Shown here: positions 30,691 to 59,646 of the stretch, piece by piece | Layout: every line of letters starts with the position of its first letter | Numbering within the stretch: position 1 is the stretch's first letter | From: Polytrichum commune | Taxonomy: Eukaryota; Streptophyta; Polytrichopsida; Polytrichales; Polytrichaceae | Length of the DNA: 64,000 nt | Reading direction: 5' to 3' | NCBI GenBank assembly: GCA_950295325.1 | Contig: OX485809.1 | Span: 24,862,001 to 24,926,000, forward strand | The notes under the pieces: model-generated | What the model was told of the DNA's origin: nothing | What the model saw: only the letters and a program-made list of their open reading frames with translations | The model's database searches: none | Made by a program: the position numbers and the translations under genes

Positions 30691-30785
30691 ACTAGCTGAC
30701 CTAATAAATTAATTCATGTAGCTCATATAATGAATTCAAGGAGACATTGTCTCATCAATACAATTATATTTCATATCAGTCAAAA

Positions 30786-33071: not shown

Positions 33072-33190
33072 GGGGAGCGCTATCATATGAGCTGTGAGCA
33101 ATGAGTGATGAGCAGTGAGCAGTAAATAATGAGCGGATAAGGGTGAGAAAAATTCAAGAAATATACCCATCACCGTGGGTTTGGTATCCT
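33072..33190 (+). repeat. Left candidate terminal inverted repeat of the large MULE
   Basis: Begins near GGGGAGCGCTATC, then CATATGAGC and several TGAGCARTGAGC-type units (33081-33135), ending with CACCGTGGGTTTGGTATCC (33171-33189). The complement of 59518-59646 shows the same order: CTATCTTATGAGC, TGAGC repeats, CACACGGGTTTAGGGTAC. Confidence 0.6.
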
Positions 33191-33877
33191 ATTACCACAT
33201 ACTTGTAGCTCAAACATCAACACATGTTACATGCCGAAAACTAACTTGCTAATTAATTGCTCCAATTCATATGAAAAATGAAACAATGATGGAAGCTATA
33301 AAACAATGATGTTGTGGAAATCATTAGGGTTTAGGGATTTTAGATAATGGTCACACAAATCAATGTCCACTCTTAGTGGTTAATTTATTAAAACAAGATA
33401 ATTGCCATAAAAAAAAACATGTGCACATATATACCAAGTCATGTGTAAGACCTCTTCATGCACCTATATTCTATTTTATTTTGTTATTTATTATTCTCCT
33501 TATTATTACAAACACGAACATTACATTCCTCTGCCTCTATATCCATGTATGTCAAGATACGAAGATCGTAATGTTTAGGTCTACTTCGCCTTGGAGGTGT
33601 AATGACGGTTGCTAACCGTATCACCTCAGACTCGGCATACACAGGGAGAATAAATTGATGAGGGGGGGACATCGCTTCCTTCATTTTTCTACACACAATA
33701 TCCAAAAATGTTAGGAACAATTGGTGGAAGACTAAGTAGTCCACAAGAAAAACCAAAATTTTAAAATCATTCAAACCAACAAACTTACGTACTCAAGCGA
33801 GATTTCCTTGGAACTTTCCGAATAGGCTCGTCATCATCTTCGCATGCCATGCTAATTGATTGCAAGTCATGGACAAT

Positions 33878-34286
33878 CACGGGTAGATCACTCCATTGTC
33901 AAGTTGAACACCACGTGCGGCCAAAAAAAATCTTCTTTTGGTAAGTTGCACCACTAAAATGGGTAAAATTTTTATCAATTTTTTTTCATGAGTAGATATA
34001 CACAGTACCTATGACATAGTTAAAAGTGGTAACTAAATTTGATGATTTGTTTTTTTCATAAAACATACCATTTCTAACTAGAATGACACAGAATTGAACT
34101 AAAACAATTACTAAAAAAAGTAAAGATGACTAAAAATTTCAAAAAATATACAAAAGATACTATCAATGGTTATGTATATGTAGAAAAAATATCATAAATT
34201 TTAAAATTATATATGGCATGTAATATAGGGGTAGCAAACTTTGTCCGCACATGGTGTCAACTTGACAATGAAGTGACCTCCCCGTG
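33878..34286. mobile_element. hAT MITE inside exon 12 of the methyltransferase-like gene
   Basis: A 409-bp element with inverted ends starting CACGGG and sharing CATTGTCAAGTTG (about 47 bp paired), flanked by a perfect 8-bp duplication TGGACAAT (33870-33877, 34287-34294). The ends match the hAT element at 29994-31607. Removing the element and one duplication copy rejoins the reading frame exactly. Confidence 0.92.
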
Positions 34287-36865
34287 TGGACAATAGGAGG
34301 TGGCAACGAATCACACAAAGGGGCTAATATTGCGTCAAAAATTGCCGAGTCTTTTTCGAATACAACAAGGTGTCGGCCACTACGACGGCAAGCATGAATA
34401 GATGCACATGCAATAAATATAATCATGCACATCATAACATTATTTTCATGTACAAAAGACTTAAATTCTAAAACTTACAAAAAAAACAAAAAGAATATGT
34501 GTCTAACTTGTAGATGCATAAGCATCAAGGACAACATCTCCTGATTTAATCAATGCTTCAATAAGAAATTGCAAAGACTCAGGGTCTTTCTCACGTGCTC
34601 CTCTCCATGGAATATTTCCGTGCATCAATTGAGCCTTGGACGTAGTACGATTGAAGAAGATATCTAGGGCCCCCACTTCCATTAGAGAAAGACCACCCAC
34701 TTTGTTGAAAACAAATTGTGGACGGGGCTCCAATCGAAAGAACATCATGACCCGAAACCGTCGAGTCTATATATAATGTTGTATTCTTAGTATTAGAGAA
34801 TAGTTATTTGTCATGATATCAAACAACAAATATAATGCACACATAAACAAAAAAAATACTTGAAGATTTAAGATAAAAGTGTACCGTAAGTTTTGTATCT
34901 ATTGGCAGACACAATGACAATTCATTTATTGCCCACCAATCATTTGCCAATGCAAATCCATATGAAGCAGCATATGCCCTAACATCATTCTTGATAATTT
35001 TGAACTCTGGAAGAAATAATAACAATGGAGCATCATCTGTGAGAAAACCATCTGCAAACTCAAACAAAGCCTCTATGTCTTTTAAATTGTGTACATTCCA
35101 AGAGGGAATTAAATCTGGAGGAGAAGACACATTCGGAACAGGTAGACCCTCTGGCAAATCCGCAATGATAAGATCAAATCCACCAAATTTATAAAATTTG
35201 GACGAAACACGAGTCTTGCGAGCATGGCCAACCTATAAATCAAAATGAAATACAATAGAATTCCATAGACAAGAAATAATTATTTTAAAATAAAAAAATT
35301 GCAAAAACATAATAAATTAAATAATGTTGTTCAAGCTTACTAACCTTTATGACAAATTCAAACGCAACCATCAACACTGGGTTGTCGATTGTATCATTCT
35401 CCAACATATTGGAGATAGATTTGTTCTTCACAAATGTAGAAACCTTGTGTATATTAGATCCATCAGAAGCTTCAAAAATCACATGTTGAAATTGAAAGAC
35501 AAAATTTGAAGGTGTTATAGCAATAACAATTTGGGGTGGACTAAGAGTTAATACAATATCATTAAGGTGCAAATCAACATTGCGTATATTGTTTTGTGGC
35601 ATTGATGCAGATGGTAGCGGTGGCGGGGACGGTACAACAACTTTCGTAGGTACATAAGGATTTGGTGTAGCATGCACTTTATGTTTACGCTGACCTCGTC
35701 TCCCAAAATGTTGTTGCTTTTCATGAGGCTCTTCCTCTATTGGTTGTGATGGCTCCATTGACAACCTAAGAGTTTCTTATTCGGAGGGATAAAAATTTGT
35801 TGGACATTCAATAAACCATGGACAATGAACCAATAAATCATAAGTCCACAATGTTAACTGTAAGGCTGAAAATACTGATTGGTCACTTGACCTATCAGCC
35901 TATGAGTTCAAAAATGAAGGCAATGCTTGCAACGTAATTGCTTTCCGGGATTGAAGCTTCTTTGTGAGGTACTTACACAAATTCAATAAGCAAATTCAAT
36001 TCGATATCACCAATAGAGATAAAATTTACTACTTCAAAATAATCAAGTGTAGCAAAATACCTATATATCACACGTTTCAGTGTCAAGTCATCATTTTGAT
36101 TCTTTATCAATATTGTGAATTTTGCAAATGATGGTGAACCGCGTAAAATTGGAGTATACGCTTTGTTCCAGAGAAGACAACGCCATTTCTTTATGTAATC
36201 TCCAATTTGGAGGACATTGTCTCAAACTATATCACCCAATTGTAGTAGAATGCCATGAAATTCATTGATGGCACCCTCCTCCAACTAAAAATTAGAATCC
36301 ACACATGAAACGTTATGTCAAATAATAATCTTAACAAATACAAACTCTATATAAAAATTATGATGTTTTCTTAAGCATAAATGCATTTACAATTATAATT
36401 CATAATATTACCTGAGCCCCAAATAATGCTTTCACCAACCACAAATCAATGTCATTGTCTATAAAATTGGGAGGCAAAAAACACAAAACCTCGCGTATCA
36501 TCGGAGAAGAATTCCACCACTTCAAACATTTCACTTTATATTTGTCATTCACCGGAGTTGTTGCAATTTTTTTGCAATTTCTCCAAGTTCATTTCTGGTT
36601 TAGGATTAGAACTCCAATGCCCATTTACCTAAAAATAATGAAAATAATGTTAAATACTAAATACACAATCTAACAAAACATAGTACATAAAATAAACGAA
36701 TAATGTAAAGACTTACCTCTTTCATAAAATCAATGCCATTTGCGGGATCCGTAACTGCAAAGAGTTTATCAAACTCCTTTGACCTATAAGCCCTCACTGT
36801 TTTTCTCACCGCATTTGCTATAGCTTGCAATTCAAGCCTAGGAGATCTTTGGGCCAATAGAGTGT

Positions 36866-39331
36866 TGTAGATAGGTTTTTAGATTGGGTTCCAATTAAGA
36901 AAACCACACAGGGAAGACCAAATGAGTGTTAGGTGTTACATCGAGGGATCACCATTGAGTTAATTGATAGATTACAAGAGAATTAAGATGTATTTAGGAC
37001 AACAAACACAAGGAAAAAAACTTCTAGAGTGAGTTTTAGGATTGATTCAATTAAGGTTGAGGGTCACTCACAGCAGTACATGCAATTGATCAGTCACTCC
37101 CTCACAACCCACTCTCATTAGTAACATCACTCTTATAATGTGTTTTGCAATTTAGGGAGTCACAGCTCAGCAATTGTCATTTGGTTACGCCATAGTCTTA
37201 GAAAACCCAAGGCATGAACTCCTTGAGTGAACCATAGTCTCTTCAGTAAAGTAACCAAGTACCAAAAGGCCACACCACAATTAGTAAGGATATCATGTTC
37301 ACAATTGACTCCTCCTATGGTTAAGTGATTGATTTAATTAAATTAGATAAAGACCACATAAATGAATTATTTCCTTAGTCAGTTCTAGACTTAACACTAT
37401 CACAGTGGAATTGAATGCATTAAAATAAATTATTGAAATTAACAAAAGTCTAACGTGTGACAGTAACCTAGTGACCGAGTCTAAGCGAAGCGAACTGAAC
37501 CGGACCGGGACCATAAGAGTCTAATCGGTAGGACCATAGTCTGCACGGCACGGCCATAGTCTAGTCACTAGTAACAGTCACAAGTAACCAGTGTCAAGTC
37601 ACGTCTCATAGAGAGGGCCATAGTCTTAGTAACCAGTAACCAGTAACAAGTAGCCATTCACCAGTAACCAGTAACCAAGTCAGCGTCAAGTTCTCGAATG
37701 TGATGCTAGCCACTCCTCCTTTTATGCTTGCCCTGTTAGCCTCACCCAAACCATATGGGTTAAGCTGTTGCTTAGCTCGCTCCCGCGGCTTCTTCTCTTT
37801 CGTTAGAACGCGTCGACTCCGTCACGATAATTTGCAGGGTAATTTCTCCAATCTCCCTTCGACTTCGTTACTGTCATCACAGATTCCATGGTCGGGGAGA
37901 TTGCTGGGTATAATCAATCGCGATCCTATAATCTGCAAACCCCACCAGTTATAGAGTGACCTCCTTCTATCTCCCTCTATTGAATTGGTATGTATTCGGC
38001 GAATCCCTCCGGAACGTTCGGTGATTTCCCTGCAGTCTTGAGCTTCAACCCGTTATTCCTCAAACTCAACTGGATCATTGGTAACTCCATACTGGTTCTT
38101 CCCAAACATTCTTCCCGCTGTATCCATCTCTTCCCGAGAATTAAAGCACACAGCAAACTGGTTAGGATTCCTCCTTTTTGAGCCACTCAACTGGGCATTC
38201 CTAAAGACTCAATCTTCCTTTCACAGGATTTAGATCTCAATGTGCTCACTTATTGGAATTGCAAATTGTATGAAAAGTTGGTGCTTAAGCATTTGCTCTG
38301 ACTTCACGTCAGATAACTCACGTTTACCACAGCCAAATCACATGGCCGATCACACCCACAGAGAATTAGCGTCACTCCCACAAGTTTCATTCACTTCACT
38401 ACCAAAGGAGACGTCACACAACACGACATTACTTCTCACCGTACTCATAAGATTAAGGGGTGGTTATTTTCACTCCTTTCTCAAGTGGAATTCATTGCAC
38501 CATCATACTCGGACTCAAACAGGTGTTAGAATTCTACACCTGAGGTTCCCTCAGACTTATTCTGCAAGACCACTTCAATTTGTGGACAATTCTTCTCGAC
38601 TAAAGTAGGTGTTCACACTTCTGAAACCTACGAATATGTTGCAACATCAACTGCAGTAGCACTGTGACAGAAACTCCCTCTGACATTTTTTGCACCAGAC
38701 AGAGGGACACTTACAAACTATCCCAATTTCCTTTGACAGGATTCAAGACACAATTCGTGTATCTTTTCAGACAAACTCCTTTCACAGGATTACATTGTTA
38801 AAGCACCTTCTCGTACTTAGATACATTCACAACACGACCTATTACAATTAGGGCTTTCAAGACAATTCATGGAATTCAATTCACTTTGATGAACCCGGAA
38901 GGATCTCTTCCTTCTCAGAAGAGACTCAACATTCCCACAAGCAATTACTCTCAATTCCCTTGAGAGAAACAACCACACAACAACTTCAATCTTCACACAC
39001 AGAATTGACAAAATAGCTTCACGCTAATATATTATGTAGAATAAAATATACAATCAGAAAGGGTTTCACACCCAAGCTAGGATGGCTCGAAAACTACGAG
39101 ACAAGGGAGGCTCTCTTCTCGAGAGGAACTATTTTTTCCTCCCCCTCTTCTCCTCTATATCCCCTGAACTAGCTACCTTGTCTCTTGGGGCCAGATTTCA
39201 TAAGGCTCTTCGACTTGGTCACATGTCTATTGCCCTACCCAAAAGACTCTTCCTCTTGGAAACTGTTTCATATGAACTAAATGTCTCACCCTTAGCTCAT
39301 TTCGGATAATCGGTCACTAATGACTTACTGT
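36866..39331. mobile_element. 2.5-kb insertion of unknown class in exon 6
   Basis: Flanked by AGTGT on both sides (36861-36865, 39332-39336), a 5-bp duplication. The + strand starts TGTAGATAGG and ends GACTTACTGT. A 5-bp duplication and a TG start suggest a solo LTR, but no second LTR, primer site or coding sequence is seen. It contains GTAACCAGTAACC-type tandem copies at about 37550-37680. Removing it restores a 62-codon exon. Confidence 0.7.
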
Positions 39332-40479
39332 AGTGTCCATTTCACATTTTGAGTATCGATATGAATTCACATCCTATCAAAATCCTAAAATGACTATTAT
39401 GAGACCAAAAAGTTGTACCACAAGTGTTGTCCCTATACTCTAGACATACCTCTTATGATGCTGCCACAACATTACGCTGAATACAACATGTTCAAAAATT
39501 TAGTTTAAAAGAATAATACAGCTTAATGTAAGAACATGAAATTGATGTAGACATTGAGATATTAAAGACTCACCTTATAGATGAAAGCTGTAAAAATGTC
39601 TGCAGTAAGAGGATATCATGTAGTCAATGGGCGTTTCTTTTTGCACTTAGCATAATCCTCAGGGGACAAAAGATTTTTATATTCTTGTAGCTTCAAAGAT
39701 CCAAAGCTCTAAATGCGATGGATTTTATGAACCAAATTGGTCTTCACGTGATCATTTTCCGTGGATCTGTCACTCCACAAAATAAATTTATAAATATAAG
39801 ATTCAATTTAACAAAAACAAAAGTGCATTTGATCCAAAAAAAAAATCAAATTAATGGATTTTAGGCCTTACCTATTGACGTCATTCATAGCATCCAAGAG
39901 AACGCCAGTGGCATCCATCGCATTAAGGCATATACAATCCATAATATAATGCCATTCCGCCTCATCAGCATGAACTTTATCTATATGCCGTCTCCATGCT
40001 GTAACTCTGTGGTTACCCTCCCATATCCAAAACATTTTACCTTTAAAAACCTTCAAATCCTCATCTCGGGAAAATGACTGTTGAAAAACATTGTTCATTT
40101 GTTACCATATTGGATCCCAAGAACTCAACTTGTCCTATGTTACACATAAACTCTCCCCACGATCGTTGACGATAGAAACATACAAGACACGATCACCTTC
40201 TCTATACCCATTGAGAAATTCATTCTCCAACAACTGAACATCAAATTTTATAGTTGGCCTAACCAAAGGAAATGGCTCCAAGCGGTACATAGGAATGGAT
40301 AAACAAGATTTAGAAAGAGGTCGAATTCGCAAGCCATTGATGACAGAGTTGAAATTTGTTTTCTCCAACTTTTTTTTTGATGCTTTTACAATGTCGGTGT
40401 CCGCCAAAATGTTATCCTATATATGAACAACCAAATCAAAACTTAGAATAAGTGAAAAAATCATCCACTCTACTTTCAA

Positions 40480-41400
40480 GAAATAGGCAAAAAACAAAAA
40501 AACAAAAAAAAACAATTATGATATAAACATGAAATTAGTGAAGAAGAAATTTCGGTACCGAAACCCCTATTCCACAACTTTCTTTCAAGAATAAACATAG
40601 GAAAAAATAAGGACATTGGATATGGTATCAACATGAAATTATTGAAGGAAAAATGTATTGTTTGAAAGAAAAGTTGTCGAATAAGGGTTTCGGTACCGAA
40701 ACCCTTATTCAAATATTTAGTTTGAAGAAACAAACATGAAAGATAAAGAGGGCAGCGGCTATAGTATGAACATGAAATTGATGAAGAAAATTTTGATTTT
40801 TTAATGGAAGTTGTGAAATAGGGGTTTCGGTACCAATACCCCTATTGCAGAACTTTCTTTCAAGAATAAACATAGGGAAAAATGAGGACATTGGATATGA
40901 CATCAATGTAAAATTATTGAATGATAAATGTATTGTTTGAAATTTTTTTTGTGAAATATAGCTTTCGGTACCGAAACCCTTATTCCACAACTTACTTTAA
41001 AGAAACAAGCATGAAAGATAAGGAGGGCAGCGGTTATAGTATGAACATGAAATTGATGGAAAAAAATTTGATTTTTGAAAGGAAGTAGTGGAATAAGGGT
41101 TTTGGTACCGAAACCCCTAGTCCATAACATTATTTCAAAAAAAATTCATAGAAGGAAATCAAATCAGCGGCCTGACATGGACACGAAACAGAGAAGGAAG
41201 CGGTAGGTTTTTGAAAGGAAGTAGTGGAATAGGGGTTTTGGTACCAAAACCCCTATTCCGCAACTTCCTTTCAAAAAACATCCATAAAAGGAAATCAGAA
41301 CAACGGCCTGACATGGACACGAAACAGAGAAGAAAGAGGTAGGTTTTTTAAAGGAAGTAGTGGAATAGGGGTTTCGCTATTACAAACATTTCTCTCAAAG
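40480..41400. repeat. Tandem array of palindromes in intron 2 of the methyltransferase-like gene
   Basis: Seven units, period about 136 bp, each centred on a palindrome related to GGTTTCGGTACCGAAACC, near 40556, 40693, 40830, 40966, 41103, 41240 and 41370. The spacers (ACATGAAATT, GAAAGGAAGT-type blocks) are also repeated, and alternate units are more alike. AT-rich and non-coding. Confidence 0.88.
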
Positions 41401-44400
41401 CATTTACAAAAATAATTATGACCACTGATATTTGAAAAATACTTACAGATAGAATGAAAAACAAACTTACATGTTGTTCTGGAGACGGGTCTGATGAAGG
41501 GGTTGTCAACTCGACGTCCATGCCAACCGTCGCTTCATCATTATAATCGGACGTTGTGTACATAGTAGCGGATGTGGGTGGTTTGTTCGCCGCTTGATGA
41601 AGGAGCTCGTTGGTTGAAGCAAACGCACTGGCCATTGTTCCTCCGCTTGGTTTCTTCATTGGCGCTCCACTTGGAGCATTCGCCTCCCTTTGCACTCTGT
41701 ATGTCACAACTAGTCCAACTTGAACTACTAAGAACCCTCTCTCTAGCAAAACCTATGAGGAAGAAAAGTGTCTAATGGCATGAACCACCCCACTATAGAG
41801 CCATGAGGAAGATGACCCCTTGCCATGCAAACCTTCCTCATGCAAAGTGCTCACCTCCATGCCACTTTCCTAAGTTAAGAGGAGTTGCTACTAGTTAACT
41901 CCCACTAGTTGGATCGCCACCAATCCTTACGGCTAAGGCTCCTTGATAGCCTTGCTCACACTACTAGTGGTATTATGGCTTTATAATAGCCTTGTTCATA
42001 CTACAAGCGCGTTATATTCCTCCCCTTCCAGATTTGAGCGTCTCTGCTCAATACACAAGTAAACCCATCAATTATTTAGGTACAACTTGTTCAAAGATCT
42101 AATGTCAAGAAATTTACAACCTAAGATCTCTTTCGCCTCTTCTTTTTAGGCAAAATATCGGGTAAACTTTCACATCCAACACTATGACGTGATAGTCGCT
42201 GTCGTAATGTAAATACATACACTATATAGATGTGTACGTATTTAATATTGCATTGTGATTCTTGGTCTTGGAGAAAAATAATAAAGAATAAAAGTAGATT
42301 ACCTTTTTATTACTCATAGTTTATTTTAGTTATCATTACCTAAGGATAGAAGTGGATAGAAGTTGCTTACCTTTTTATTACTCATAGTTTACTCTTAGTT
42401 ACCTTTACTAAAGGATAAAAGTGGATAGAAGTGGATAGTTACCTTTATCCTTTTGTTTACTCACAATTTACTCTTAGTGTTGCTTTTACTTTACCTTTTT
42501 TATGTCTTACTTAGTTTATCTTGAGTTACTTTTTGGACCAATGGGTGATTAGAAGCCATGTGATGAGGATAAGAGAAAACTTTATCTCTCGCATGGATAG
42601 AGAGAGGTGGTGAAGGAAAGATGTTATGTGATTATTGTGGGAGAGAAGTTGTTGAGAGAGAGAAGTGGATTCGAAGCTCACGGTGTGAGTTGTTTTGAGA
42701 AGAATATGAAATAAAATACGAGGGATTTATGATTCATGAGAGATCTTACTTGTTGTTTTGGAAGTTAGCAATCAAGATTTGTGCTTGTTTGAGTGGAGGG
42801 AAGTCTGTTGGTTCTTAAAAGAAGAGCTGAGACTTTGACCGACCATAGAAGACGGACAGATTGAAGAATTGAAGGCTTCAAGACTCGAATGTGTGGTTGC
42901 TTGTGGCACGTTGTCTTTTTCTTGTGTGTGTGATTCCAAGCCGGTTTTGGAGGCTAGTTGCATTTCATTTTTGCATCGTAATTTGTTTCCTGTGTGACAA
43001 CGAAGTGGGATTAATGACCCACAAGGTTGTTTGTGACAACGAAGTGGGATTGATCACCCATAAGGTTGTTTTCTGTCGTTCCCACTGGTGAGGCGCGATT
43101 GCTGGTCACCGTGGGTTTGAAAGTTTAGGAGCCAATCTTTCGGATGTCAGCTCGTGTTCTGATGTCCCGTTTTACCCGTCCGAAGCCCGTGGTTTCTTAT
43201 CACACTATCCATACCCTTTACCCATATAGAGCCGCAACAGGATAGGTCGACGGGAAAGAGGTTGAAGATTAGAAGAAATTTAAGAAATTTAAGACTAGAA
43301 GACCAGAAGACTCGATTGAAGACCAGAAGATTCGACGGGTCCGATAAAATCTAGTTTCAGCCAGAAGCCCAGTGCTTTCCCAAGGCGGAACCCTCTCTAC
43401 CCGACATCGTTCGTTAGCGCGGACTACAGAATCCCAATATTCTTTGAGTACTTCAAGACTCAAATTAGATTCAGGCTCCCAAGAGTTATGTTCAAGCCCA
43501 TAACCGAGCCACTTGATGAGGTAGAATTTAACGGGACGGGAACAGCTCCCTCTAACCTCATGTTGTAAAACACGTTCCACTTCATATGATATATCATGAT
43601 TTTCAATGACTGGCGGTGGCGGAGGCTTTACCCTGCCATTAGCCTTGTAAGGCTTCAACAAAGAGACGTGGAAAACATTATGAATTCCCATGGTCTCTGG
43701 AAATTTCAAACGGTATGCTACGACGCCAATTCTCTTAACAATCTCAAATGGGCAAATTCATCGAGGAAGTAATTTCCTCGCACCTGGGGTTTTCAACTTA
43801 ATGTTGGAAGTACTAAGAAGCACCTCAGATCCCACCTCATACGACACATCACGTCGTTTGGTGTCAGCATAAGATTTTTGTCTTTGTTGAGCTGCCAACA
43901 AATGTTTCTTAGCTTTGCTAATAACATTACTCATGGCCAAAGCAAAATCTTTTGCAGCCTGAACTTGAGAACCGCTGATCCTTCTATTCACAGGTGTTGA
44001 AGGATGCTGACTTTAATTCAACAGAAAAGGTGTAGTCTTGATAGATTCTTGCCACAAGTTATTGTAGGCAAATTCAACTATTGACAAATACTCATCCCAG
44101 TCATCTTGGGAAAGACTCACATAATGCCTAAGCATATCCTCAAGGACTCTATTTAACCTCTCTGTTTGACCATCGGTTTGAGGATGAAAAGATGTAGACA
44201 TGGCCAATTGAGTGCCTAACAAGTAGTGCAACTCTTGCCAAAATCTACCCGTAAATCTCGCATCTCTATCACTGATTAACTTAAGGGGGATACCATGTAG
44301 CTTATAGACATGATCCCTAAATAATCTTGCCGTCTCCTCAGCGGTCACAGTTGTTGTAGTCGCCATAAAATGAGCCATTTTGCTCAATTTATCGATACAT

Positions 44401-45202
44401 ACAAAAATTGCATCATGCCCTTGCTTAGTTGGCGTAAGTCCGACAATAAAGTCCATGCTTACACATTCTCATTTCCTCTCAGGGATTTCAAAGGGTTGTA
44501 ACAATCCACCGGGTTGCGTAGTAGGGGCTATACTACGTTGGCAAACATGGCAAGAATTTACATATTTCTGAACATCCTCCCTCATTTTTGGCCACCAAAA
44601 ACGAGTTTGAATCTTCTTGAGCGTCTTAGAAATACCCATATGACCACTATACAGCGCATCGTGATGTTCATGGAGTATATACTCTCTTAAAAACCCCAAA
44701 TTAGATTCACCAACTACCACATTTGGTACCACAATTGCATCATGGTGCCACCAAAGGTCATCCTTAAAAATCAATTGGAAAATATTAGTCAGATCCATAA
44801 ACCATGGATTGTGAGCGTATCCTGCAATGATGGATTGAAAGAACGATTGTTCCTTAACAACCAACTGTTCATTGACGCACTCAGGATCACTACACACTTC
44901 ATTTGCCGGTGCTCTGGGAGCACCCTTTGAGATGTCTGCAGCCATCTCTCCGGAGCTCAGTATAGAACAACTCATAGTCAATAAGGCTCTTAACTTGACA
45001 TCTCTACATCCCAAAGAGTCATGGCTCAAGACATCAACATAAGCATTTCCTCCTAGAGGGTTACGACTCAAAGGATCGGCAATATTAATTAATGCGTCCT
45101 GGCCTATATTCCCATCTGTATGTAAAGTTTTGTTCTAAATACTCTAACCATTGGGCCTGACGCCTTGACAATACTTGTTGTGACTTTAAATAGGTGAGGG
45201 GA

Positions 45203-46270: not shown

Positions 46271-46655
46271 GGGGATTGTGGTCTGTCACTACCACGCAAT
46301 TTGCACCTTCCAAATAACAACGCCAAGTGCACAAGGCGTGCACAACCGCTGTAAGTTCTTGCTCTCCAGTGGTATAATTCTTTTCAACAAGAGAAAGCTT
46401 TCGACTTTCAAAAGCTATCGGTCGTCTTTTTTGTAAAAGAATCGCACCAATACCAACAATGGAGGCATCGCAAATGACCTCAAAAGGTTCAGCTAAAGTG
46501 GGCAAGGCTAACACGGGAGCGTGTGTTAGCGCATACTTCACTTTGTCGAATGCCTCTTGGCATTCAACCGTCCAATTGTACTTAGAATCATGCTGAGTTA
46601 AATTGGTAAGAGGCGCTACAAGGGTTGAATATCCTTGAATAAAACGTCTGAAATA

Positions 46656-48729
46656 CAGTAGAACCTACCTAAACTGATAACCTCGGGACCTCCAAAATTT
46701 ATCAGTTAACGCAGGTTATCAGTTTAGGCAGTGGAGGTCGGGAGTAGTGAAAAAGAGCATAACACACAAAACCGAAACCACGTTGTGGGTTTAGGGTTTG
46801 CTTGTCGACGGAAACGGGGGTTTCGCCCTAATCTGGGTTGACTACTAGGCTTCCACAACCCATTCAAACACACCGACACACCGACACCCGGCTCACAACC
46901 ACAACACACACACACCGCAACCACATCACATCCATACGATGCCGCAACGTGGCGTTCAACACACGACAATGACGGATGAGGTCCGCATTGCTCTGTGCCA
47001 GTACAAAAAGGACAATCCCAAAGTCAGGCAGAAGGACCTCGTGGCATGGCTCGAGAAGGAACACAACACCAAAGTTGCCCAGTCAACCATCTCGGGCACC
47101 CTCAAGCGCTCCGCTGAGCTGCTCCAAATGACAAACAACATCAATCTCAGCCAGAAACGCCAGCGCACCGTTAAGTATCCTGAAATGGAGGAGGCTTTGG
47201 CGGAGTGGTTCCACGCCAATCAGGACCGCATCAACATGAGCGGTGATCTCCTCAAAGAGAGTGCAAAGAAGATCATGGATCGTCTGTATCCCGACCACGC
47301 TACTTTTGAGTTTTCCAACGGCTGGCTCGAGTCCTTCAAGAACCGCCATGGGATCAGGTCTTACCGCCACTTTGGAGAGAGCGGATCTGTCAACATGGAA
47401 GTGGTCGAGGGCGAGAGGCCCAAGATTCGGGAGATCTTGGATAAGTACGAGCTCAAGGACATCTACAATATGGACGAAACAGGATTGTTCTACAGGATGC
47501 AGGCCGACCATTCGCTTGCGACCAAGCAGCTGGAAGGTCGAAAACAACACAAGGAACGCCTCACGCTCGCCGTTTGTTGCAATGGTGACGGTTCAGACAA
47601 ACTTCCATTGTGGGTCATTGGAAAGTCTAAGAATCCACGCTGCTTCAAGAACGTCAACCTCAACAATCTAGGTTGCGTTTACCGCGACAATGCAAAGGCT
47701 TGGATGACATAGATTGTGTTCCTTGAATGGCTCAAAGCATTTGACCTTCGGATGGCTAACAGAAAAGTTCTTCTCATCATGGACAATTGCAGTGCCCACG
47801 TCCTCCTGGCCGAGCTTCCTGATCGCATCCAACTGAGGAATACAACAGTCTTCTACCTTCCGCCAAACACCACGTCTAAGTTGCAGCCTTGCGATGCTGG
47901 AATCATCCGGAACCTGAAGGCCTACTATCGGCGCTCCTTCAACCGCCTCCTATGGCAACACATGGAGGACAATGTGGCCAATCCTGACAAAATGGACATC
48001 CTGCAAGCGATCAGGCTTGTAGTTCCGGCTTGGAAGGATGAAGTCAAACCCGCAACAATCGCCAATTGCTTCGGACACTGCCGAATCCGAAGTGTGGGCC
48101 ATGTCCTAGCTCAGGATCAGCAACTACCAGTTTCTGCTGCAGAAGATGTCGTTGCCGAAGAGAATCTCCTGGACCAAGAGGTCATCAAGGACTTGGAGTC
48201 ACAAATCCGGCAGTTCCGGTACCGCAACCCGATGGACATTCGGAACCTTCTCAACTATCCAGATGAGGAGGTGGTCTCATACCTGCCAGACCTGGACGAT
48301 ATCATTCGGGAGCATATACCAGTGGAGACTGACAATGCGATAGTTGACGAAGACGACAATGAGGAGCTTCCTCCCATTCCGGCCGCAGAGGCGGATAGGA
48401 TAATCCAGTCGCTAGAGACCTTCTGGATGCAGCAGGCGGATACGGAGGACCACTTTATGACAAGCTTACAGCGCATGAGAGACAAGGTTAGGGCTATCAG
48501 GACTCGCCAGGTGGTGCAAAAGGACATTCAGAGCTATTTTATGCGAGCTTAAGTAGCACGTATGTAGGGCAAATTAGTTTACAAAAGTTGTGGGACCAAG
48601 AGAAATGATCAAATAACAAATTACGGAGGTTTATCAGTTCTAGTATGGGGACATGCTCGGGACCGGAAATATTTATCGGTTTAGAGGGGTTATCAGTTAA
48701 GGCAGTATCATTTTAGACAGGTTCTACTG
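46656..48729 (+). mobile_element. Tigger/pogo-type (Tc1/mariner) transposon, almost intact
   Basis: A 2074-bp element with inverted ends CAGTAGAACCT, flanked by TA (46654-46655, 48730-48731). Subterminal TATCAGTT motifs recur at both ends. It encodes one transposase with a single in-frame stop. It interrupts the Gypsy pol gene, whose reading frame rejoins exactly across the TA site. The coding part is visibly more GC-rich than its surroundings. Confidence 0.95.
46939..48552 (+). pseudogene. Tigger/pogo-type transposase with one TAG stop
   Basis: Cut-and-paste DDE transposase. One open frame of 537 codons plus terminal TAA, broken only by TAG at 47710-47712. The N terminus has a helix-turn-helix (VRQKDLVAWLEKEHN ... 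QSTISGTL). Residues ~75-140 form a CENP-B-type DNA-binding region (LAEWFHANQ ... NGWLESFKNRHGI). The DDE_1 core has YNMDETGLFYR (first Asp), LLIMDNCSAH (second Asp) and TSKLQPCDAGIIRNLK (third Asp). The C terminus is acidic. The stop lies between the first and second Asp, so translation would end before the catalytic core is complete. It is consistent with CAG to TAG. Confidence 0.93.
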
Positions 48730-50599
48730 TAATTACATAACTCCAAAAATGAGCGCAATTGCCCAACATCACGAGGCGTATTCCATTTCATGACAGTTTC
48801 GATTTTAGCCGGATCAACTTTAACCCCATCTTTGCCCACGACATGACCCAAATAATGGAGCTCGTCCTTTGCAAAGTGACATTTAGACAACTTTGCATAC
48901 AACCGATGTTTACGAAGAATTTTGAGGACTTTGCTCATGTGGGCTACATGTTCCTTTTCATTCTTCGAGAATACCAATATGTCATCAAGGTACACCAAGA
49001 CAAACTTGCCAAGGTACTTGTGAAAAATTCGATTCATCACACCTTGAAATGTTGCCGGTGCATTAGTCAATCCAAAGCTTAAAACTTTAAATTGATAATG
49101 GCCGAACGGAGTTCTAAATGCCGTCTTAGGGGCATCCTCATCCGAAATTAGAATTTGGTGATAACCTTGTGCTAAATCAAGAGACGAAAAAATTCGAGCA
49201 CCCGCCAATTGATCAAATAAATCATCAATTCTAGGCAAAGGGTATCTATTTTTTATTGTCTGCTTATTCAACGCGCGGTAATCGACCACCATTCTCAAAG
49301 TTCCATCCTTCTTCTGTACAAAAAGAATGGGAGATCCATAAGGCGAGGCACTAGGTTCAATCCAACCTTTTTCTAAGTACTCTTGTACTTGCCTCTTCGC
49401 CTCTTCCAATTCTTTTGGACTTAGGCGGTAAATCGGCCTAAAAGGCGGTTTACTACCTTCCTCCAAAGGAATGGTATGAGCCATTTCCCTCTCAAGGGGT
49501 AGCCCACTTGGCAAAGGTTCAAAAACATCTTCGAACTTCTCTAAGAGTGCAGCTAAGCACCCTGTGTCAACAAGTTGGGACGAGGTTTCTTCATCATCAA
49601 CCTTAGTCAATTGGAATAAAATAGGCATGGCCCCTTTTCTTACCGCCCTCTTAAACTGCATTGCCGAGAGGCATTTTGTTGAGGACTTAGGTGGCCAATG
49701 CGTCAAAGGATTGGCTTGCAATGAAATTTTTCGCTTGCCCTTTTGAATGACACATGTTTTGGATTCATAATCCACATGTGCCTTATACTTGTTCAACCAA
49801 TCATCACCAAGTATCAAATCTATGCCGTCACTAAGTTTTGTGACCACGCATGTTAGGTGACCATAATATTGTTGAATTTTGACACGCAATTTCACATATC
49901 CTTCAACTTGAACTTCCTCTCCATTTGCCAATTGCAAAACACTGGAATCCTTAACATATTGCAAATCCAAAATTGTCAAGGTAGCTAGAATTGACAAAAC
50001 AATCAGTGGCCGCAGTGTCCAATATCACATGAGCATTAAGTCCCGAAACTTGACCCAAAAATTGCATTGCAAGTCTCCTAGTCCCACCAAAAATATTCAA
50101 ATTTTTTGGTCTAGGTGCATCATAATAAACTTGCAACGTGTGGGGTTTGTTGTCTTTCAAGACTTGAAACTCAAGTAACAATTGCAATCCTTTCAAGGCC
50201 CTCTTTACAAACACACTCTTGTGCTTTTCAATCAAAAAGCAAGCTCTTGTATCAAAAGAATGCAACCTTTTACCTTCTCTATAAGCCAATAGAAATCTTT
50301 CCATCATGAGAGAAGTCAAATCCACAAACATACATTTGCCATAGATTTTTGAATGAAAATTCATCAACAAATTAAGTGAGCGTTTACATGGAACAGAAAG
50401 TGTTTCCTCTTTATTATTTGGATATGTACAAATGAGGAAATCAAAAGAATGCTCTATCTTGGCCTCTATCAAAGAGATCAAAGAGCTATCAACAAAATTA
50501 ACACATTGTTCCTCTTCACCAACAGGGAGCCCACTAGTCAACTGTTGGCGATTCAAAAATCCTTCTTGGTTTTGAACTTCGACTTCTCAGAAGGTGCGC

Positions 50600-51527
50600 C
50601 ACCATCCTTCTTCTCCCCGGTGCAGTCCTTGGCTTGGTGCCCTTTTTGTTCGCAGAGGAAACATTTTCCTTCATGACGAAGTGCATTCGCCTAGAAATCC
50701 AATGATTTCCCATTGGACAAAGTCATGGCCTTGCCACGTGCCTTGTCCTTGCGGATAGGACCACTAAACTTAAGAGGGTTCTTCCGCATCTCTTTGGGGC
50801 AGGATTGCTCAATGGTGGCATCCATTGCTACCGCGTAGGTAAGCAATCGCTTAAAGTCATCCCAACCGCCACCCTCGTTGAACGGGTCAACAACAACTCG
50901 CTCGCGGATTTCTGGTTTTAATCCACGGACAAAACGATCAATTTTGTCGCCCACGCTCAACTCTAAGTTTGTAATTTGCGCACAAAGGAGTTGGAACTCG
51001 GTGGCATAAGCCTCCACCGACCCCTTTTGTGTCAAATTCCACAACTTATTTCGGGCAACTTGCTCGGGAAGGACATTCCCATAAGCCCGAATCAATGTTT
51101 GACAGGAAATTTTCCACAAACGGTTATCTTGCCCGGTAGCCTCAAGCTCTTTGGCAAGAGTTTGCCAATGTTGGGCCACACGCGGCTCGAGGTAAGTCTA
51201 AGCAACTTGGACTTTTTCCTCTTCAGCGACTTGACCCGCGGTCAAGTAGCGCTCTATACAGTCTAACCACTGTAAAATATTGGATCCCGGCTTATCCTTA
51301 AAGCACTCGGGTTCCATCAACTTAATGCGTTGGGTAGAGGCCCCTTGGGCATTTCCACCTTGCGTTCTCAAAGCAAGCAATTGTTCTTCCAATAAAGTCC
51401 ACTCGACAGTTTCAGTATTGAGTAATTCATCCAATCGATTTACCTCTCGTAAAATAGGACCCAATCTTTCATCTACATACCTCGTAACCCGCTCTTGGAG
51501 CTCATCGACGGGTTCTACACTAGCCAT
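50600..51527 (-). pseudogene. Gypsy gag remnant
   Basis: Capsid-precursor gene of the surrounding retroelement, starting at the ATG at 51527 (MASVEPVDEL). It continues through a retrotransposon-gag region with coiled-coil-like N-terminal heptads and FVRGLKPEIRERV, then a CCHC zinc knuckle (CFLCEQKGHQAKDC) near 50630-50680. In-frame TAG codons at about 51196 and 50690 make it non-functional. Confidence 0.85.
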
Positions 51528-53014
51528 TTGCTCTAAATTTTGCAACTTTATGGAGGAAGTTTTGATGGAGAATTCAACCCCTACAAAGTTCAAAACAATC
51601 AATGGAATCTCACCCACGCCGAGATTCGTTAAAGCTCTTATACCAATGTCACAACTAGCCCAACTTGAACTACTAAGAACCCTCTCTCTAGCAAAACTAT
51701 GAGGAAGAGAAGTGTCTAATGGCATGAACCACCCCACCATAAAGCCATGAGGAAGATGATCCCTTGCCATGCAAACCTTCCTCATACAAAGTGCTCACCC
51801 CCATGCCACTTTCCTAAATTAAGAGGAGTTGCTACTAGTTAACTCCCAGTCTCCCACTAGTTGGATCGCCACCAATCCTTACGGCTAAGGCTCCTTGATA
51901 GCCTTGCTCACACTACTAGTGGTATTATGGCTTTATAATAGCCTTGTTCATACTACTAGCGCGTTATACTGTGTGTCTCCTGCGCACAACCCCTACGAAA
52001 TGGTATTCTTTCCTCTTGGCTGTTCCAAAACGTTCATTTTCCCTAAAGCTTCTGGCCAAAACGATGTATATTTTTAGAAATTTTTCTTCGCCCCAAAGAA
52101 TGGATCGAATCGGAAGAAAAATCTCCCACGCGAGTGAATTAGGGTGGAAAAATTTCCCAGCAAATAGTTGTTTCAAAATGGAGAAAAAATCCCTTCTGAT
52201 TTTTCGGATTTAGGTTTTCATGTTGCCTTATCACATTGCTTTGGACGTGGTAGCCACTAATCTGCATACAATGTTTTTTATTGACAACAATCTCATTTTT
52301 TATGTGTTTTTTTGTTTTCAAATCACTTACAATCAGTTATTCCGTAAGAAATACAATTTCTATGTTTGGTAGTTTACAAGTTCAAGAGGTAATATCTCGG
52401 GGGAGGGGTAGTCATTGGTTGGAGTAGCAATATACGTGCGAACAAATGATAGGGTAGTTTAAAAAACATGGGGGCAAAAAATTATAAATGGACTTAAGAG
52501 TAATATAGGGTATCAAAAATGGCACTGGACATCTTTAAAGTACTATAGGATATGGAATAATAGATAATTTGGAATTATAAGTAATGCAAGCCATTTTTCT
52601 ATTAACCCAAAGTAGAAAATCACATAATGATAGCATGTGAAAAAAAAAATTGAAAGTAATACACCCCTATAAAATAGTGGTTGTTCGCACCTATATCCTT
52701 AATTTTTTAACACACTGCCCCCCCCCCCCCGAGGGTGGTATCAATTGGAAAATTGCCTCATCTATACATAAAAACCATCAAATACTCACCGGTGGATTGT
52801 AAATGGAAGTGCATTCTTCTTCTTGGTCTGCGTCAAACATATCGTTGGCAGTGTTGTTCACTCGTTTGTCATCATCATTTCCAAAAATGAGGGGTTGTTC
52901 GTTATCTTGCGTCTCGATTTTAACATTCTCATTCTCTTCTATTGCAGGAAATTCTAGTACGCGTACGGTGTCTTCGATGTCACATAAAGTGATCCTACCT
53001 ATTTGTCGTTCCAT

Positions 53015-53401: not shown

Positions 53402-55532
53402 GTGCATCTATTGCATTCCATCCCTACGGCTACCATTAGAGCTCATGGATCCTTTGTTCCATTCATGTTGCCACTTCAAGATGATGGTCACGTAGGTGTC
53501 TTAGAGGATCTTCTCAGTTTGAGGTTCAATTTCCAGACGAGAACCATGTACTTAGAGCAGGAGATGTTTTCTGCGGATGGACAAATCTGTGAAACAATCC
53601 TGGTCCAAAAGAATAGAACTTACGATGGTTCAATGTGGATTCTAGGGCCTGGTTCGTTCAGAGTGATAGGTATTTCTGAGTCCCAAATGCAAGCTTCAAC
53701 TGTTGTATTGACAAACCAATCTGGCGCATCCACAGTTCAAATGCCAAATGTTAAATTGAAGCCTGCTGATAATATTGTGTGTTTATTATCAGATTCTGAT
53801 GATAATATTTGTGCAACTGTTGATCTATCGGACACATCGTCATTTCCTTTTAAAAATACTCCTTCTCAAGTCCCTTTGCATGCATCCAAATCATCATGCA
53901 TTCATTTGTCCAAGAAGTTTGCTTGTCGCGACACACCTTCTCAACGTCCTCCACTACACCCTTCGTCTTCATCTATAGGATTGACTATCATTGATGCCTT
54001 GAAGTTCACTAAATCTAGGAAAATGTCAAAGTCGGATCTTGCCTCAATTGATTTTGAGAATATAGTGGTTCGCTATGTCAAGTACTTACCATCTTCTTTC
54101 GATGGTGATATTTTATTTGTCTTACCCCCTGTGCCACTTGGAATTCCAAGTGCATATGGCCGCTCAATGGATGGCATGGACAAGATGTGCAATAGTCACC
54201 CTTGGTGTACCACCAAAACCACGAATATCCAAAACGACTTTGGATTGTCATTTCGATGATCTACTTGTGCATGTCATCTCCAATGTCAGAATGATCACTG
54301 CGATTAAATGCATCACAATGGAGGTGTGCGCAATACCACCGAGTGGGCAAATTCAACTCATCTCCCATTTGTTGTGGGTGATGTAGCCCCTGCTAGATCC
54401 ACTTTTGAATGTAAGGTATGCTGATCACCACCTGTGTGTATTGCTTTGTGTCATGCTCGCATACTTTATGTCCACTCCACATCTTCTGAAATGTTAAGGG
54501 CTTGCATTCATCTTGGTATGCATGATCACCATGTATCTAGTGGTATATGCCGTGAATCATTAGATATGGCATACCACTGCGTTGCAAATGAAATATTGAA
54601 AATACCCACCGCAACAAATTCAGCTATAGTTTTGGGTGCAAGCAAGCAATTCTTGGCCGATTATCTTATCAAATCTGCCACTATTGGTGAAGGGCATCAC
54701 CTAGTTGGTTCATCATTAAAGGTGGTCATGGACAAGTTCAGTACTCTTGCATCTCCAAATTGTCGTAATTTTGCATCTGGATCAAAACGCTTTGTGCGTA
54801 GTGGAATGGGAATTATGAATAGTATTATGGCTCTTAAAGACCATTCTACTTTCAAGTTTATTCATGGCAGTCGGTTCCCAGGGCAATCAAAAGACAAAGT
54901 GTTTGTTTTCAAGATGTCCGTAGATCTTCCGGGCAGTGGTGTGGAGCTTGTAAAAAGAATACAAGTCGGGGGGGACATGGAGAACTCTTGGATTATGTTT
55001 GACCATGTTAAACGTCTGAAAGATTAGACAACAATGGCTTGTCATGTGTATGATAGTCGATATTGTAAAGTGTTGACCATTGCGTATTGTGACATGCAAT
55101 CTGAGGATGGTACAGCACAAACTCTCTTTTGGGAAAATTTGAATGTTGTAATGGCAGAGAATGGTGTTTCAAAGGTGAACTTCAAAGGGTTCATGGCAGA
55201 CAGTGCTCAAGCTAATTGGAATGCGGTGAGGATGATTTACGGTGATGGTGATCCAACTTTGCCCATGGTCGCACATTAACGTACATGTCTTTTTCATTGG
55301 TCTGCAATTTTGGATAAGGTGATACAAAAGTATATCAAACCATCCTTGCAATTTCAACACAAACAACTCTGCAAGGATTACACAGATGCAAAAATAATGG
55401 ACGATGCTGAGACTAAGTACTATGTCATTTGTTCTTGGTGGTTGTCATCCGGAGCTGCCACAGAAGAAGGCATCCTCGGCCTTTCAGAGTGGTTGGGATT
55501 TTGGCATTTCCGTTATAGACAATGGGGTGGTC

Positions 55533-56748
55533 TGTGAGCCCAAAACGGTGCCCACATGTGTGGTTAACCTCAAAAGTTATTAGGAATGTTCATTTTTTAT
55601 TATGATTACTATTTTAAAACTAAAAAGAGTGTAACCCGTGGGTTTGGTGTGTTTTTGTGTTAACAAGGGATTTACGTCATTTGTGTGTTGAGAGAGGGTT
55701 AATGTTAATTAGATTTAGTTAAAGTGATTGTAGTTAGTACTTTTGTTATTAAGAAGGGGAATGTGAGCTTGAGGCTTAAGGCTGGGTTAGGTGCCCGAAT
55801 TGGGCTTAGAGGCTATCCACATTGGGACCAGGGGCTGGTGGAATTGGGTTGTAGCTTTGTTAGAATCAGGGGGGGTAGGCCTTGCAATTTGGAGCAACGC
55901 TGGATTCTCGGATGGATCAGCTGCGAGGCAGCCAGAAGCGGCAGCTCGCCGCAAGGATCACACTCTCTCAATGTTCGAAGGCAGGGGAGGGGCCGACTGC
56001 TCAAGGTCGTCGAACCTGGTTGAATGCCGAAGGTTGAACCTGGGTTGAATGCTCAAGACTGAGCTGGGTTGAATGCCGAAGGCCGAACCTGGGTTGAATG
56101 CTCAAGACTGAGTTGGGTTGAATGCCGAAGGCCGAACCTGGGTTGTATGCTCAAGACTGAGCTGGGTTGAAGGCAAGGCCGAGCTGGAGTGAGGGCAAGG
56201 TCGCCGAACCAGGCAGAGACGGCTCAAGGCCAAGCCTGGGATACCGAGATGGAATGGAGGTTGAGATTCGTCGCAACTGGGCCACCTGTGCCGGTGATGG
56301 GCAATGACGGGTCTGACCCCGAGCCCAAACAGCGTAGAATGCCGGAGTAATGGGGGGAACTGAGATTGAACTAGGGGTAGGGGCTAGTAGCATTTAGGCT
56401 AAGTTATGTTGTAGGCTAGTTAAGTAGGCTTAATATGAAGTATTCAGCTAGGGAATTATTTTAGTTAGGGAGCAAAGGCCACAAGGTGTTAGAAGGTGGC
56501 ATTAGGGGGTTGAACTTGTGGTTGAGTTGTGTGGGGTTGTAATAGAGTGTGCTAATAGGGCCATCATAGAGAAGAGTGTTTTTTTAACACTTGTAATCTT
56601 ATCGTGGAATGAATTGGTGTGCCAAGATTGATGTGGAATGCAAGGGAGGTTAATGACGTAAAAAAAAATGGAATTAGACAAGCAGGAATGTGAGCCCCAT
56701 GCCCCCACCCGGACTACAACGCATAAGGGTGGGTGGTTTGGCCTCACA
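55533..56748 (+). mobile_element. Solo LTR in the MULE transposase gene
   Basis: A 1216-bp sequence starting TGTGAGCCCAAAA and ending GCCTCACA, flanked by TGGTC (55528-55532, 56749-56753). Excising it with one duplication copy restores the transposase frame. It contains a ~60-bp tandem repeat (GGGTTGAATGCCGAAG / GGTTGAATGCTCAAGACTG, 56015-56170). Related at its 5' end to 45203-46270. Confidence 0.88.
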
Positions 56749-57574
56749 TGGTCACATGTTACTTGTAAGTTCATATTATTCTACATTATTCAATGTCATT
56801 GAGTTTTTGTTGCTTTATTTTATTTCTAATATATCTATAACTCATTTTTACTAATCCTATACTTGTGTATGTTTCATAGGATATGACAATCGAAGAACGT
56901 GCAGAAATGCCAACATGCAACCTTGCAGAAACTGTACACAACAAATGGCTCCAACAGTCCAGCAACAAGATGACTTGTTTATATGAAGCAACAGTGGATG
57001 ACATGATTCGTATTTTCATGCAAATTGCAAATTATCGGGCATGACTGAAAGGAGGATTAGATGGTAAAGGCCTGGATTCTGCGTCCTTGAAACTCAAAGC
57101 TCCTCATGGTGTGGCTCATACTACATCCGTGTTAGAGACTGATTGTATTGCTTCTAAGTAGTACATTGCAAGATTGTCACCCAACTCAGCCAAACGCTGT
57201 TGGGCATTGCAGGCCATTACAGGGACTATGCGCAATGCCAAAATCAGGACTGGAAAACATGGCATACCTGCTCCAACATACAAAGGGCTTAGGAAGGAAT
57301 TTTGCTCTCCCAACAACGTGGAGTATGAATTTTGGTTTTGCCCTGACGACATCAAGCGTTGTGTGAGTGGCAGTAAGAAGAAATATGTGTTGGATTGGCC
57401 TATAGTACCCAACACGTGGCCAGTGAAAATAAGTACCAATCTATCGAGAGAGGACGTTTTGGCACTTGAAGATGTTGGATTTCAACTACAGCAGAGGGAG
57501 GCATTGTCCCCTCGTCGTAGGCTTTCAACAATCACAACTCTCCCCATCCCTCGCTTGCATTTTTGTATGCCACC

Positions 57575-58316
57575 CAGGGTTGTCTATTGTGTTGTGACGG
57601 AGGCTAATCCCGACATAATGTCATGGCGTCACGACACGTATCTGTCACGACATTATGCCGGATGCCGTCTTTATCCTGACGAACTTGAATTTTACCGTAT
57701 TTTTTTGTGTAATTATATTACCCCAATCAGGACACGTAGGATTTACGATATCCACGTATGGTGCCATGTCAGCAAAGTAGAAGTAAAGTGGGAAAAAAAT
57801 TACTAACGCCCGTCCCCCCCCCCCCATCCGAACCCGGCCCCCCCTAATCCGAACCCCCTCCCCCCCCTCCCCCCCATCCGAACCCGCCCCCCCCCCCCCC
57901 CATCCGAACCCGGTCCCCCCTAATCCGAACCCCCTCCCCCCCCAATCCGAACCCCAATCCGGCCCCCATCCGTACCCCATCCGACCCTCCATCCGGCGTT
58001 CCCGCCCCCGTTCCCGTCCCCGTCCGCTCCGTTCCCCTCCCCCCCACACCCTCATTTGTCATATTTTACTACTTTGATTTTAACATAATGATAAACACAA
58101 AGGCAAAATGATTTACCTCGCAAGGGAAATATGCACATCCACGTCGGATTTTTTTGCCACATTGGATGCCACCTTGGCAAGAAGGTAAGTATTTTACCCA
58201 CCATACTAGCTTCCCCCTAGTATGACCCTACGTGGACCCTATTATGTCGTGACGGAGGGGTTCGCCCCGACACGACACGTCATGACGGTGGCAGGACGTC
58301 GCGATAGACAACCCTG
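57575..58316. mobile_element. hAT MITE with C-rich tandem core in the MULE transposase gene
   Basis: The inverted ends start CAGGGTTGTCTAT on both sides, flanked by a perfect 8-bp duplication ATGCCACC (57567-57574, 58317-58324). The 742-bp interior is non-coding and dominated at 57808-58040 by poly-C runs alternating with ATCCGAACCC. The end sequence differs from the CACGGG hAT family. Confidence 0.92.
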
Positions 58317-58676
58317 ATGCCACCATACCCGGACATCCACCTTACGTTCAGGTTTGGGAAGACAGTGCGTCGTAATCCAACAGCACCGCTAGCGGATCAC
58401 AAAAACAAATGAAAGAGCGCCGGACTCATGGAAAGTTACTATGTGATTGGCATCACTGCCATTCCATATCCGGGCTTTGGAGTGATAATCAATATTGTCT
58501 CCAAGCATGATATCACCTACCATGTCACAACTGGCGACATCCCGCATTGCACATGCCCGGATTTCACAAAAATGTCCTCTCATGCATTGGGAAAGAAAGG
58601 AAAATAGGTGTATTGTAAACATCTTTATTATGTGTTTAGATTTTTATGCAAGGTGGATTACGAGAGTGACAAGTTC

Positions 58677-59440
58677 ATTCATGCACCTACATATACCTAT
58701 AATGAGGTCATGCGACTACTTGAACTTGCTGGTATTATAGAATATGAGTAGTATTGCAAGTGTTCTATTAAGCAACATATATTTGAATGTCAATAAATGA
58801 CATGTTTTGGTTTGGATTATTATAATAAAAATTAGCAATGGACTGAAAGTATTTCAAATGATTTAGTAATTTCATTTCTATTTAGACTACGACCCAACCG
58901 TGAGCAGTTTGATTGATTCACACGGATAAATAATAACAAGTTTTTTAAAATAAAAAATAATTGAGAAGATTTTACGCACATCCGCGTAGTAACGTCTTCT
59001 TGGTATCTGCCTATAGATTATTCTTGCTTTATCACTAGCTCAATTTGGGATAGCACCAGTCAATGTAACCAACCGGATTCGAACCCGGGTTGATCCAGAC
59101 CTAATACCAATCTCTTACACAACTCGCATCCACAAGCAAAACCTAATAACTACCTATATATTGACAATTTCTAATATCTAATTTCCTTGCTTTTGTAGAT
59201 TGTGGGCCTTAACTCAACCCATGAGCGGTTTGAATGGCTCACAGTTATGACACCTACATATACGTATAATGAGGTTATGCACCTACTTGAACTTGCTGGT
59301 GTTGTAGAATGTGAGTAGTTGTGCAAGTGTTGGTTGTAACTACATGTATAAGGATGTCAATAAATGACATGTATTGGTTTGGATTATTATAATAAAAATT
59401 AGCAATGTATTGAAAGTGCTTTAAATGATCCATGGCAATA
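58677..59440 (+). repeat. Duplicated 3' end of the MULE transposase region
   Basis: 58677-58870 and 59248-59440 are direct copies (ACCTACATATAC, ACTTGAACTTGCTGGT, TCAATAAATGACATG, GGATTATTATAATAAAAATT blocks). They cover the last ~22 codons of the transposase and the 3' flank. A second, shorter direct pair (TGAGCRGTTTGA) occurs at about 58901 and 59224. Confidence 0.75.
58930..59190 (-). repeat. tRNA-related fragment, possible SINE
   Basis: The minus strand contains CCCGGGTTCGAATCCGG at about 59075-59092, a perfect internal B box of a tRNA-type pol III promoter. No convincing A box, cloverleaf or anticodon arm was found, so it is not called as a tRNA gene. It lies between the two direct copies of the transposase 3' end. 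Confidence 0.35.
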
Positions 59441-59517
59441 GGGCCCTTTCACTTATGCTTCATTTAAAATACTGGCAATTTACAATTGAAAATATGCAAT
59501 TAATTTGTCAAAATTCT

Positions 59518-59646
59518 GGTTGTGTACCCTAAACCCGTGTGTCTTTACTAAATTTGGATTCATTGTTCATATGTTACTGCTCATTGCTCATGTGTTACTG
59601 CTCACCGCTCACCGCTTACTGCTCATCGCTCATAAGATAGGTACCC
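59518..59646 (-). repeat. Right candidate terminal inverted repeat of the large MULE
   Basis: Inverted counterpart of 33072-33190, with GCTCA-type repeats (59578-59635) and an outer end at GATAGGTACCC. It starts ~770 bp after the transposase reading frame ends, a normal distance for an autonomous MULE. Confidence 0.6.

Follow-up and report, generated by a model that had tools for sequence, protein, structure and literature searches.

What element occupies positions 33072 to 59646 of this stretch of Polytrichum commune DNA, and why does a transposase gene there stand back to back with a methyltransferase-like gene? The stretch analyzed, here called the window, is 64,000 nucleotides long (contig OX485809.1, indexed as G000:C7:24862001-24926000) and belongs to an assembly of 408 Mb in 64 contigs; positions without a contig label are those of the window. 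The best explanation, which we regard as probably correct, is a decayed, nested copy of an ∼11.5-kb autonomous-type Mutator-like transposon with a probable pseudo-methyltransferase helper.

The element is bounded by two inverted sequences. The left, methyltransferase-side terminal inverted repeat (33072-33190, + strand) reads GGGGAGCGCTATCATATGAGC, then TGAGC repeats, then CACCGTGGGTTTGGTA. The right, transposase-side repeat (59530-59646, − strand) was placed by alignment of the two ends, by its GCTCA count and by alignment to a genomic copy. The ends aligned to each other with a score of 75, against a maximum of 45 among 500 random window segments. TGAGC is present five times at the left end and GCTCA six times at the right end, in a single orientation at each, and the rest of the window contains at most 2 TGAGC or 3 GCTCA per 100 bp. 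Terminal inverted repeats, a feature of Mutator-like elements, are present. End similarity and repeat counts were beyond chance, yet a single copy is no proof of a transposon; the matter is settled by genomic copies.

One exon of the leftward gene gave 1169 candidate sites in the genome; the 150 of these that were scored are listed as matches, and four of the best copies (A to D) were examined over 12.5 kb each. In copy A (C2:1335576-1348075) all eleven exon pieces of the leftward gene share a strand, and the two transposase exons lie on the opposite one. The cassette measures ∼11.5 kb in all and is complete with both ends, a TGAGC cluster lying past one gene and a GCTCA cluster past the other. 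Copy B (C4:3352913-3365412) repeats these exon pieces and their divergence in reversed orientation; its transposase exon 2 is damaged and its right end was not found within the 12.5-kb stretch. Copy C contains only the later leftward-gene exons, from the ParB-like exon onward. In copy D the last leftward-gene exons and a transposase occupy one strand, separated by a GCTCA cluster that resembles an end; this is a rearranged or neighbouring element. The second gene lies between transposon ends and opposite the transposase in the window and copy A (both ends) and in copy B (one end). Three of ten further copies (L012, L014 and L008, the last by a 16-residue match only) also carry transposase sequence in divergent orientation, giving 6 of the 15 copies tested when the window, A and B are included. 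The single two-gene element of ∼11.4 kb proposed in the preliminary description, with its transposase rightward and its methyltransferase-like gene leftward, is borne out by this recurrence between ends of the same kind. The window element itself measures ∼10.7 kb without insertions (33072-59646 minus the insertion lengths, some insertion ends being approximate). At L009 and L030, transposase sequence and the motif IV exon of the methyltransferase lie no more than 1.5 kb apart, a spacing that differs from that of the window.

The boundaries were fixed by the same copies. In an alignment of the window and copies A-D (n = 5), left-end homology starts at GGGGAGCGCTATC or variants of it, corresponding to window position 33072, outside which the five flanks are dissimilar; owing to runs of G the position is uncertain by a base or two. 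The right end of copy A (...AAGATAGCTTCCC) matches the window at 59646 (...AAGATAGGTACCC), and the coordinates first proposed for both inverted ends hold. The left end, with no more than one mismatch in a 12-base core and with differing flanks, was found at 14 of 30 loci matched via the motif IV exon. These loci extend only 1.5 kb past the exon, and hence the window's own locus is absent from the count. In each of ten further copies a single 1.6-kb stretch, taken close to where the right end should lie, was scanned by pattern, and none matched.

A 9-bp target-site duplication, TATTTGGGG (33056-33064 and 59803-59811), with an 'outer' right end at 59802 was tried and rejected. Its probability at matched offset was 1.3e-4, but 11.5% of random flank pairs share some 9-mer. 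The outer segment aligned with a score of 42, which is background and was equalled at several unrelated places, and the duplication is also ruled out by the genomic copies that fix the ends at 33072 and 59646.

The rightward transposase gene has two exons between 53465 and 58748 (+ strand). Exon 1 (53465-55532) encodes the N-terminal domain, a WRKY/GCM-like segment, the first two catalytic aspartates and the C(2)H motif, and is resumed past a solo long terminal repeat (LTR) at 56754-56764, as placed by comparison with P0001. Exon 2 contains CNLAETVHNKWL (56880-57574), which from its motif we take to be the third catalytic region, and ends in a SWIM-like motif, CTCPDF...YCKHLYY (58325-58748). 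The best fold match was ISCth4, and the protein is a DDE RNase H-like transposase of Mutator/IS256 type with a C(2)H motif. The CxC..CxH pattern of SWIM, a zinc finger that is frequent though not obligatory among Mutator-like elements, is present, with Pfam SWIM E values of 0.3 (window) and 0.076 (P0003), below cut-off. NCBIfam gave no match to the transposase, a PDB search with the transposase profile gave none, and scans of viral contigs with P0001 and A2 gave no lead. Exon 1 of the window copy contains five in-frame stops. The one relative found among genome contigs, L004 (CADCWO010000080.1), is a two-exon transposase of this family on a contig of 4.1 kb that is assigned to a cyanobacterial genome (AVDCRST_MAG81) and is probably contamination from a eukaryote. 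Past the transposase gene lies an array of TGATACC-like repeats, and the second gene was not found on the 4.1 kb.

The leftward gene runs from 53014 to about 34257 (− strand) in eleven traced exon pieces, all present in copies A and B. Exon 1 (52790-53014) begins MERQIGRITLC and is followed by exon 2 (41471-41696). The ParB-like exon (39872-40416), with the motif EGNHRVTAW, has one in-frame TAG and one in-frame TAA in the window and is open in copy A; the neighbouring exon (39573-39771) has two stops in the window copy. Four central exons with no assigned fold occupy 35343-36875 (about 36717-36875, 36413-36637, 35980-36283 and 35343-35760), with one stop and a frame change in the window. The last three exons carry motif IV (FDLIIADLPEG, 34885-35232), motifs X and I (GDVVLDAYAST, 34508-34766) and, after motif I, ASIHACRRSGRHLVVFEKD (34257-34407); the splice acceptor before 34407 is CAT in the window and CAG in most other copies. 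A tandem array of 275-bp and 136-bp units around palindromes like GGTTTCGGTACCGAAACC was observed at 40476-41400, within an intron of this gene.

The last three exons form a beta-class N4/N6 amino-methyltransferase domain. For the window's exact letters PF01555 gave E 1.2e-5 and a score of 25.9 bits, slightly short of its 26.7 cut-off. The motif order IV, then X-I, as in the beta class, was read from the exact window letters and from three phage methyltransferases that are colinear with the leftward protein, motif IV standing ahead of X and I (the query had two wrong junction letters). Weak matches were obtained to 92 phage records; the 20 listed lie over the motif X-I part, the best of these with E 0.002. 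Matches of the domain in NCBIfam were far below cut-offs only, and the whole second protein had no homologue at E ≤ 0.01 among 8000 scored. The sole profile match of the ParB-like exon was a ParB-like PHROG, non-significant both in the window with its stops read through (E 0.36) and in copy A, where the exon is open (E 0.14); Pfam, NCBIfam, a PDB sequence search and tblastn against phages gave none. The part is a probable ParB domain, as judged from EGNHRVTAW and the weak match. Of the original label 'ParB/methyltransferase-like', the methyltransferase half is supported by the beta-class domain, and the ParB half stands on a motif and a non-significant match.

Motif IV was then compared across 38 genomic copies, comprising the 30 loci and 8 more from subfamilies 40%–55% identical to the window exon. 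The window has FDLIIADLPEG where two of the phage enzymes have DPPY and one has DPDY. At the fourth position 32 copies have E, 4 have K and 2 have N, and an aromatic Y, F or W does not occur; at the second, every copy has L, I or F in place of P, and a few copies deviate at D or the later P. Most copies read D-L/I-P-E and [DNS]PP[YFW] is present in none. In 33 database homologues the fourth position was covered in 24 and aromatic in none. A pattern DLPEGLPVP..S.PP..IP.WN around the motif recurs across all copies examined. The alteration is not single-copy decay. In motif I the aspartate is retained in most copies. The first glycine is mostly serine, otherwise alanine, threonine or cysteine, and the second glycine is encoded at 13 of the 21 loci (of 38) with a locatable exon junction, the window having serine. 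Catalytic motifs of such enzymes include SPPY, DPPY, NPPY and DPPW, and changing SPPY to APPA kills activity, according to the available text of PMC8885841.

What the two proteins might do can be set out as follows. The transposase, with its RNase H-like DDE core, C(2)H and C-terminal SWIM-like motif, presumably binds the terminal inverted repeats, TGAGC arrays included, and mobilizes the element. The second gene would encode a protein of ∼1100 residues that combines a beta-class amino-methyltransferase domain with a probable ParB-like part for DNA binding. This protein may bind element DNA, perhaps at subterminal repeats, and could serve the element as a transposition helper or as a sequence-specific factor that acts on chromatin or against silencing. 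It may bind S-adenosylmethionine (SAM) as well as DNA, and on its motifs it is probably no ordinary methylating enzyme. A helper or pseudo-enzyme role is favoured because DPPY is replaced, with no aromatic residue in 38 of 38 copies. A SAM-binding pseudo-methyltransferase would accordingly be more likely than a writer of N4-methylcytosine or N6-methyladenine, since the catalytic motif is altered in every copy examined, and the 'DNA-modifying' role first assigned to the gene has become doubtful. More tentatively, at somewhat less than an even chance, a ParB-methyltransferase of bacterial type was acquired by a Mutator-like family, whose subfamilies, 40%–55% identical, retained a remodelled active-site motif. 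The product would then resemble VANC, though of independent origin: a DNA-binding factor, sequence-specific and responsive to SAM, that works in anti-silencing or transposition. By analogy, VANC of VANDAL elements is the closest functional model, and we know of no methyltransferase or ParB domain in VANC.

Several observations weigh against a Mutator-like two-gene transposon. The preliminary description had anticipated target duplications of 9-10 bp. No target-site duplication, 8-11 bp long in Mutator-like elements, was found at either of the two both-ended copies, the window (GGAGATAAA / TTCATGTGC) and copy A. No curated Mutator profile scored above cut-off: P0001 gave none, and Transposase_mut was matched by 2 of 50 members with a best E of 0.034. 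On these two grounds the element is a putative member of the Mutator superfamily. Copies A and B carry lesions, as the window copy does. Divergent transposase was not seen in 9 of the 15 copies, within the sequence examined, and in a second methyltransferase-gene subfamily (L021-L026, L028-L033) this left end was not found within 1.5 kb. These last two results, with the same-strand transposase and intervening GCTCA cluster of copy D, are what would be expected if a transposase element merely sat beside or was nested with a separate methyltransferase element or a captured host gene. Such a chance or secondary association is very unlikely. It is largely refuted by copies A and B, which share exon order and divergence with the window; the ends lie past the 3′ ends of both genes in copy A and the window, and three further copies have divergent transposase sequence. 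In the copies examined in full, neither of the refuting outcomes named in the preliminary description was seen: the methyltransferase-like gene alone at conserved host loci without the ends or transposase, or the inverted ends as an unrelated, independent repeat. Further methyltransferase-like gene subfamilies were observed (L021-L026, L028-L033; L053-L060), and near 46% identity many genomic matches score identically, pointing to recent amplification that may have involved other element families.

Lesions in the window and in copies A and B, and stops in some exons of other copies, would also suit a functionless relic carried along after capture of the Pack-MULE type (MULE, Mutator-like element). 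This is very unlikely: the exons are mostly open and motif-like positions are conserved across subfamilies 40%–55% identical to the window exon, which is unexpected for a passive fragment. More weight is due to a further alternative, nonetheless considered unlikely, in which the second protein is active as an N4-cytosine or N6-adenine methyltransferase, its motif IV altered yet still catalytic, and both binds and marks the DNA of its own element. Such a role has been suggested for the Sola1 gene of Ectocarpus. The domain pair, similar size and opposite-strand placement match that published gene (PMC12477816, in the text available). Retention of the motif I aspartate in most copies and of the second glycine at the 13 loci fits catalysis, and the conserved DLPEGLPVP..S.PP..IP.WN-like sequence suggests a selected function. 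Against this, the aromatic residue and the first proline of motif IV are gone in all 38 genomic copies, and motif I is mostly YAST, where the phage enzymes are FAGT-like. The pseudo-methyltransferase helper remains the preferred reading, and the window copy is a decayed, nest-inserted member of a large family.

The insertions in the window copy are foreign to the element. A Gypsy-type LTR retrotransposon with closely similar LTRs (41701-51968, − strand) lies in the first intron of the leftward gene and itself contains a Tigger/pogo-type element with CAGTAGAACCT ends at about 46.66-48.73 kb. The solo LTR in transposase exon 1 (55533-56748; TG...CA, duplication TGGTC) has flanks that read QWGGHMLLVS when joined, as in P0001. 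Transposase exon 2 is interrupted by a hAT-type non-autonomous element (57575-58316) whose ends are CAGGGTTGTC and whose 8-bp duplication, ATGCCACC, is exact; long C-rich tracts were observed within it. At 58684-59429 the 3′ end of the transposase is duplicated over 179 bp (85%), the two copies flanking a tRNA-like stretch, GGATTCGAACCCGGG, perhaps a short interspersed nuclear element insertion. Outside the element, 42-bp tandem repeats form two clusters at 30387-31470.

With this locus, accessory genes of the ParB-methyltransferase type, already reported in algal transposons, are seen in a Mutator-like element too. That every copy examined lacks the usual catalytic motif offers an alternative to 'transposons that methylate themselves', namely a methyltransferase fold reused as a binding factor, and the 1169 candidate sites for one exon (150 scored) provide ample material on selection, target repeats and methylation marks.

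Among known systems, the transposase resembles ISCth4 of the IS256 family in its RNase H-like DDE core, helical insertion and C/DxxH motif, whereas ISCth4, as described in the available text of PMC7780238, is a bacterial insertion sequence with a single open reading frame and no accessory gene. Mutator clades have SWIM, often 9-bp duplications and, in some, extra reading frames or motifs (FAR1, PMD, and SET in 14 oomycete members); one clade is tabulated as 'No TSD', TSD being target-site duplication (PMC6446971). The main text of that paper lacks the word methyltransferase, and the portion available notes no DNA amino-methyltransferase and no non-seed plant clade. The preliminary description knew of no Mutator-like element with such a partner, and none with a ParB-methyltransferase-type gene was found in the open-access literature searched; the kind of gene, however, has already been reported in algal transposons of other kinds (PMC12477816, available part). 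The ParB plus N4C/N6A-methyltransferase accessory of Sola1-1_Ec32 (Ectocarpus) is alike in having ∼1100 residues, the same domain pair, a strand opposite the transposase and a giant DNA transposon as its setting. It differs in that Sola1-1_Ec32 is a Sola1 element of 21.5 kb, against a Mutator/IS256-type transposase here; motif IV is altered in the Polytrichum element, and Sola1-1_Ec32 was compared without its motif IV letters (same source and part). VANDAL with VANC is likewise a Mutator-like element with an accessory protein, and in the available text of PMC10398659 and PMC13317346 VANC proteins attach to noncoding tandem repeats in particular VANDAL copies and strip silent marks.

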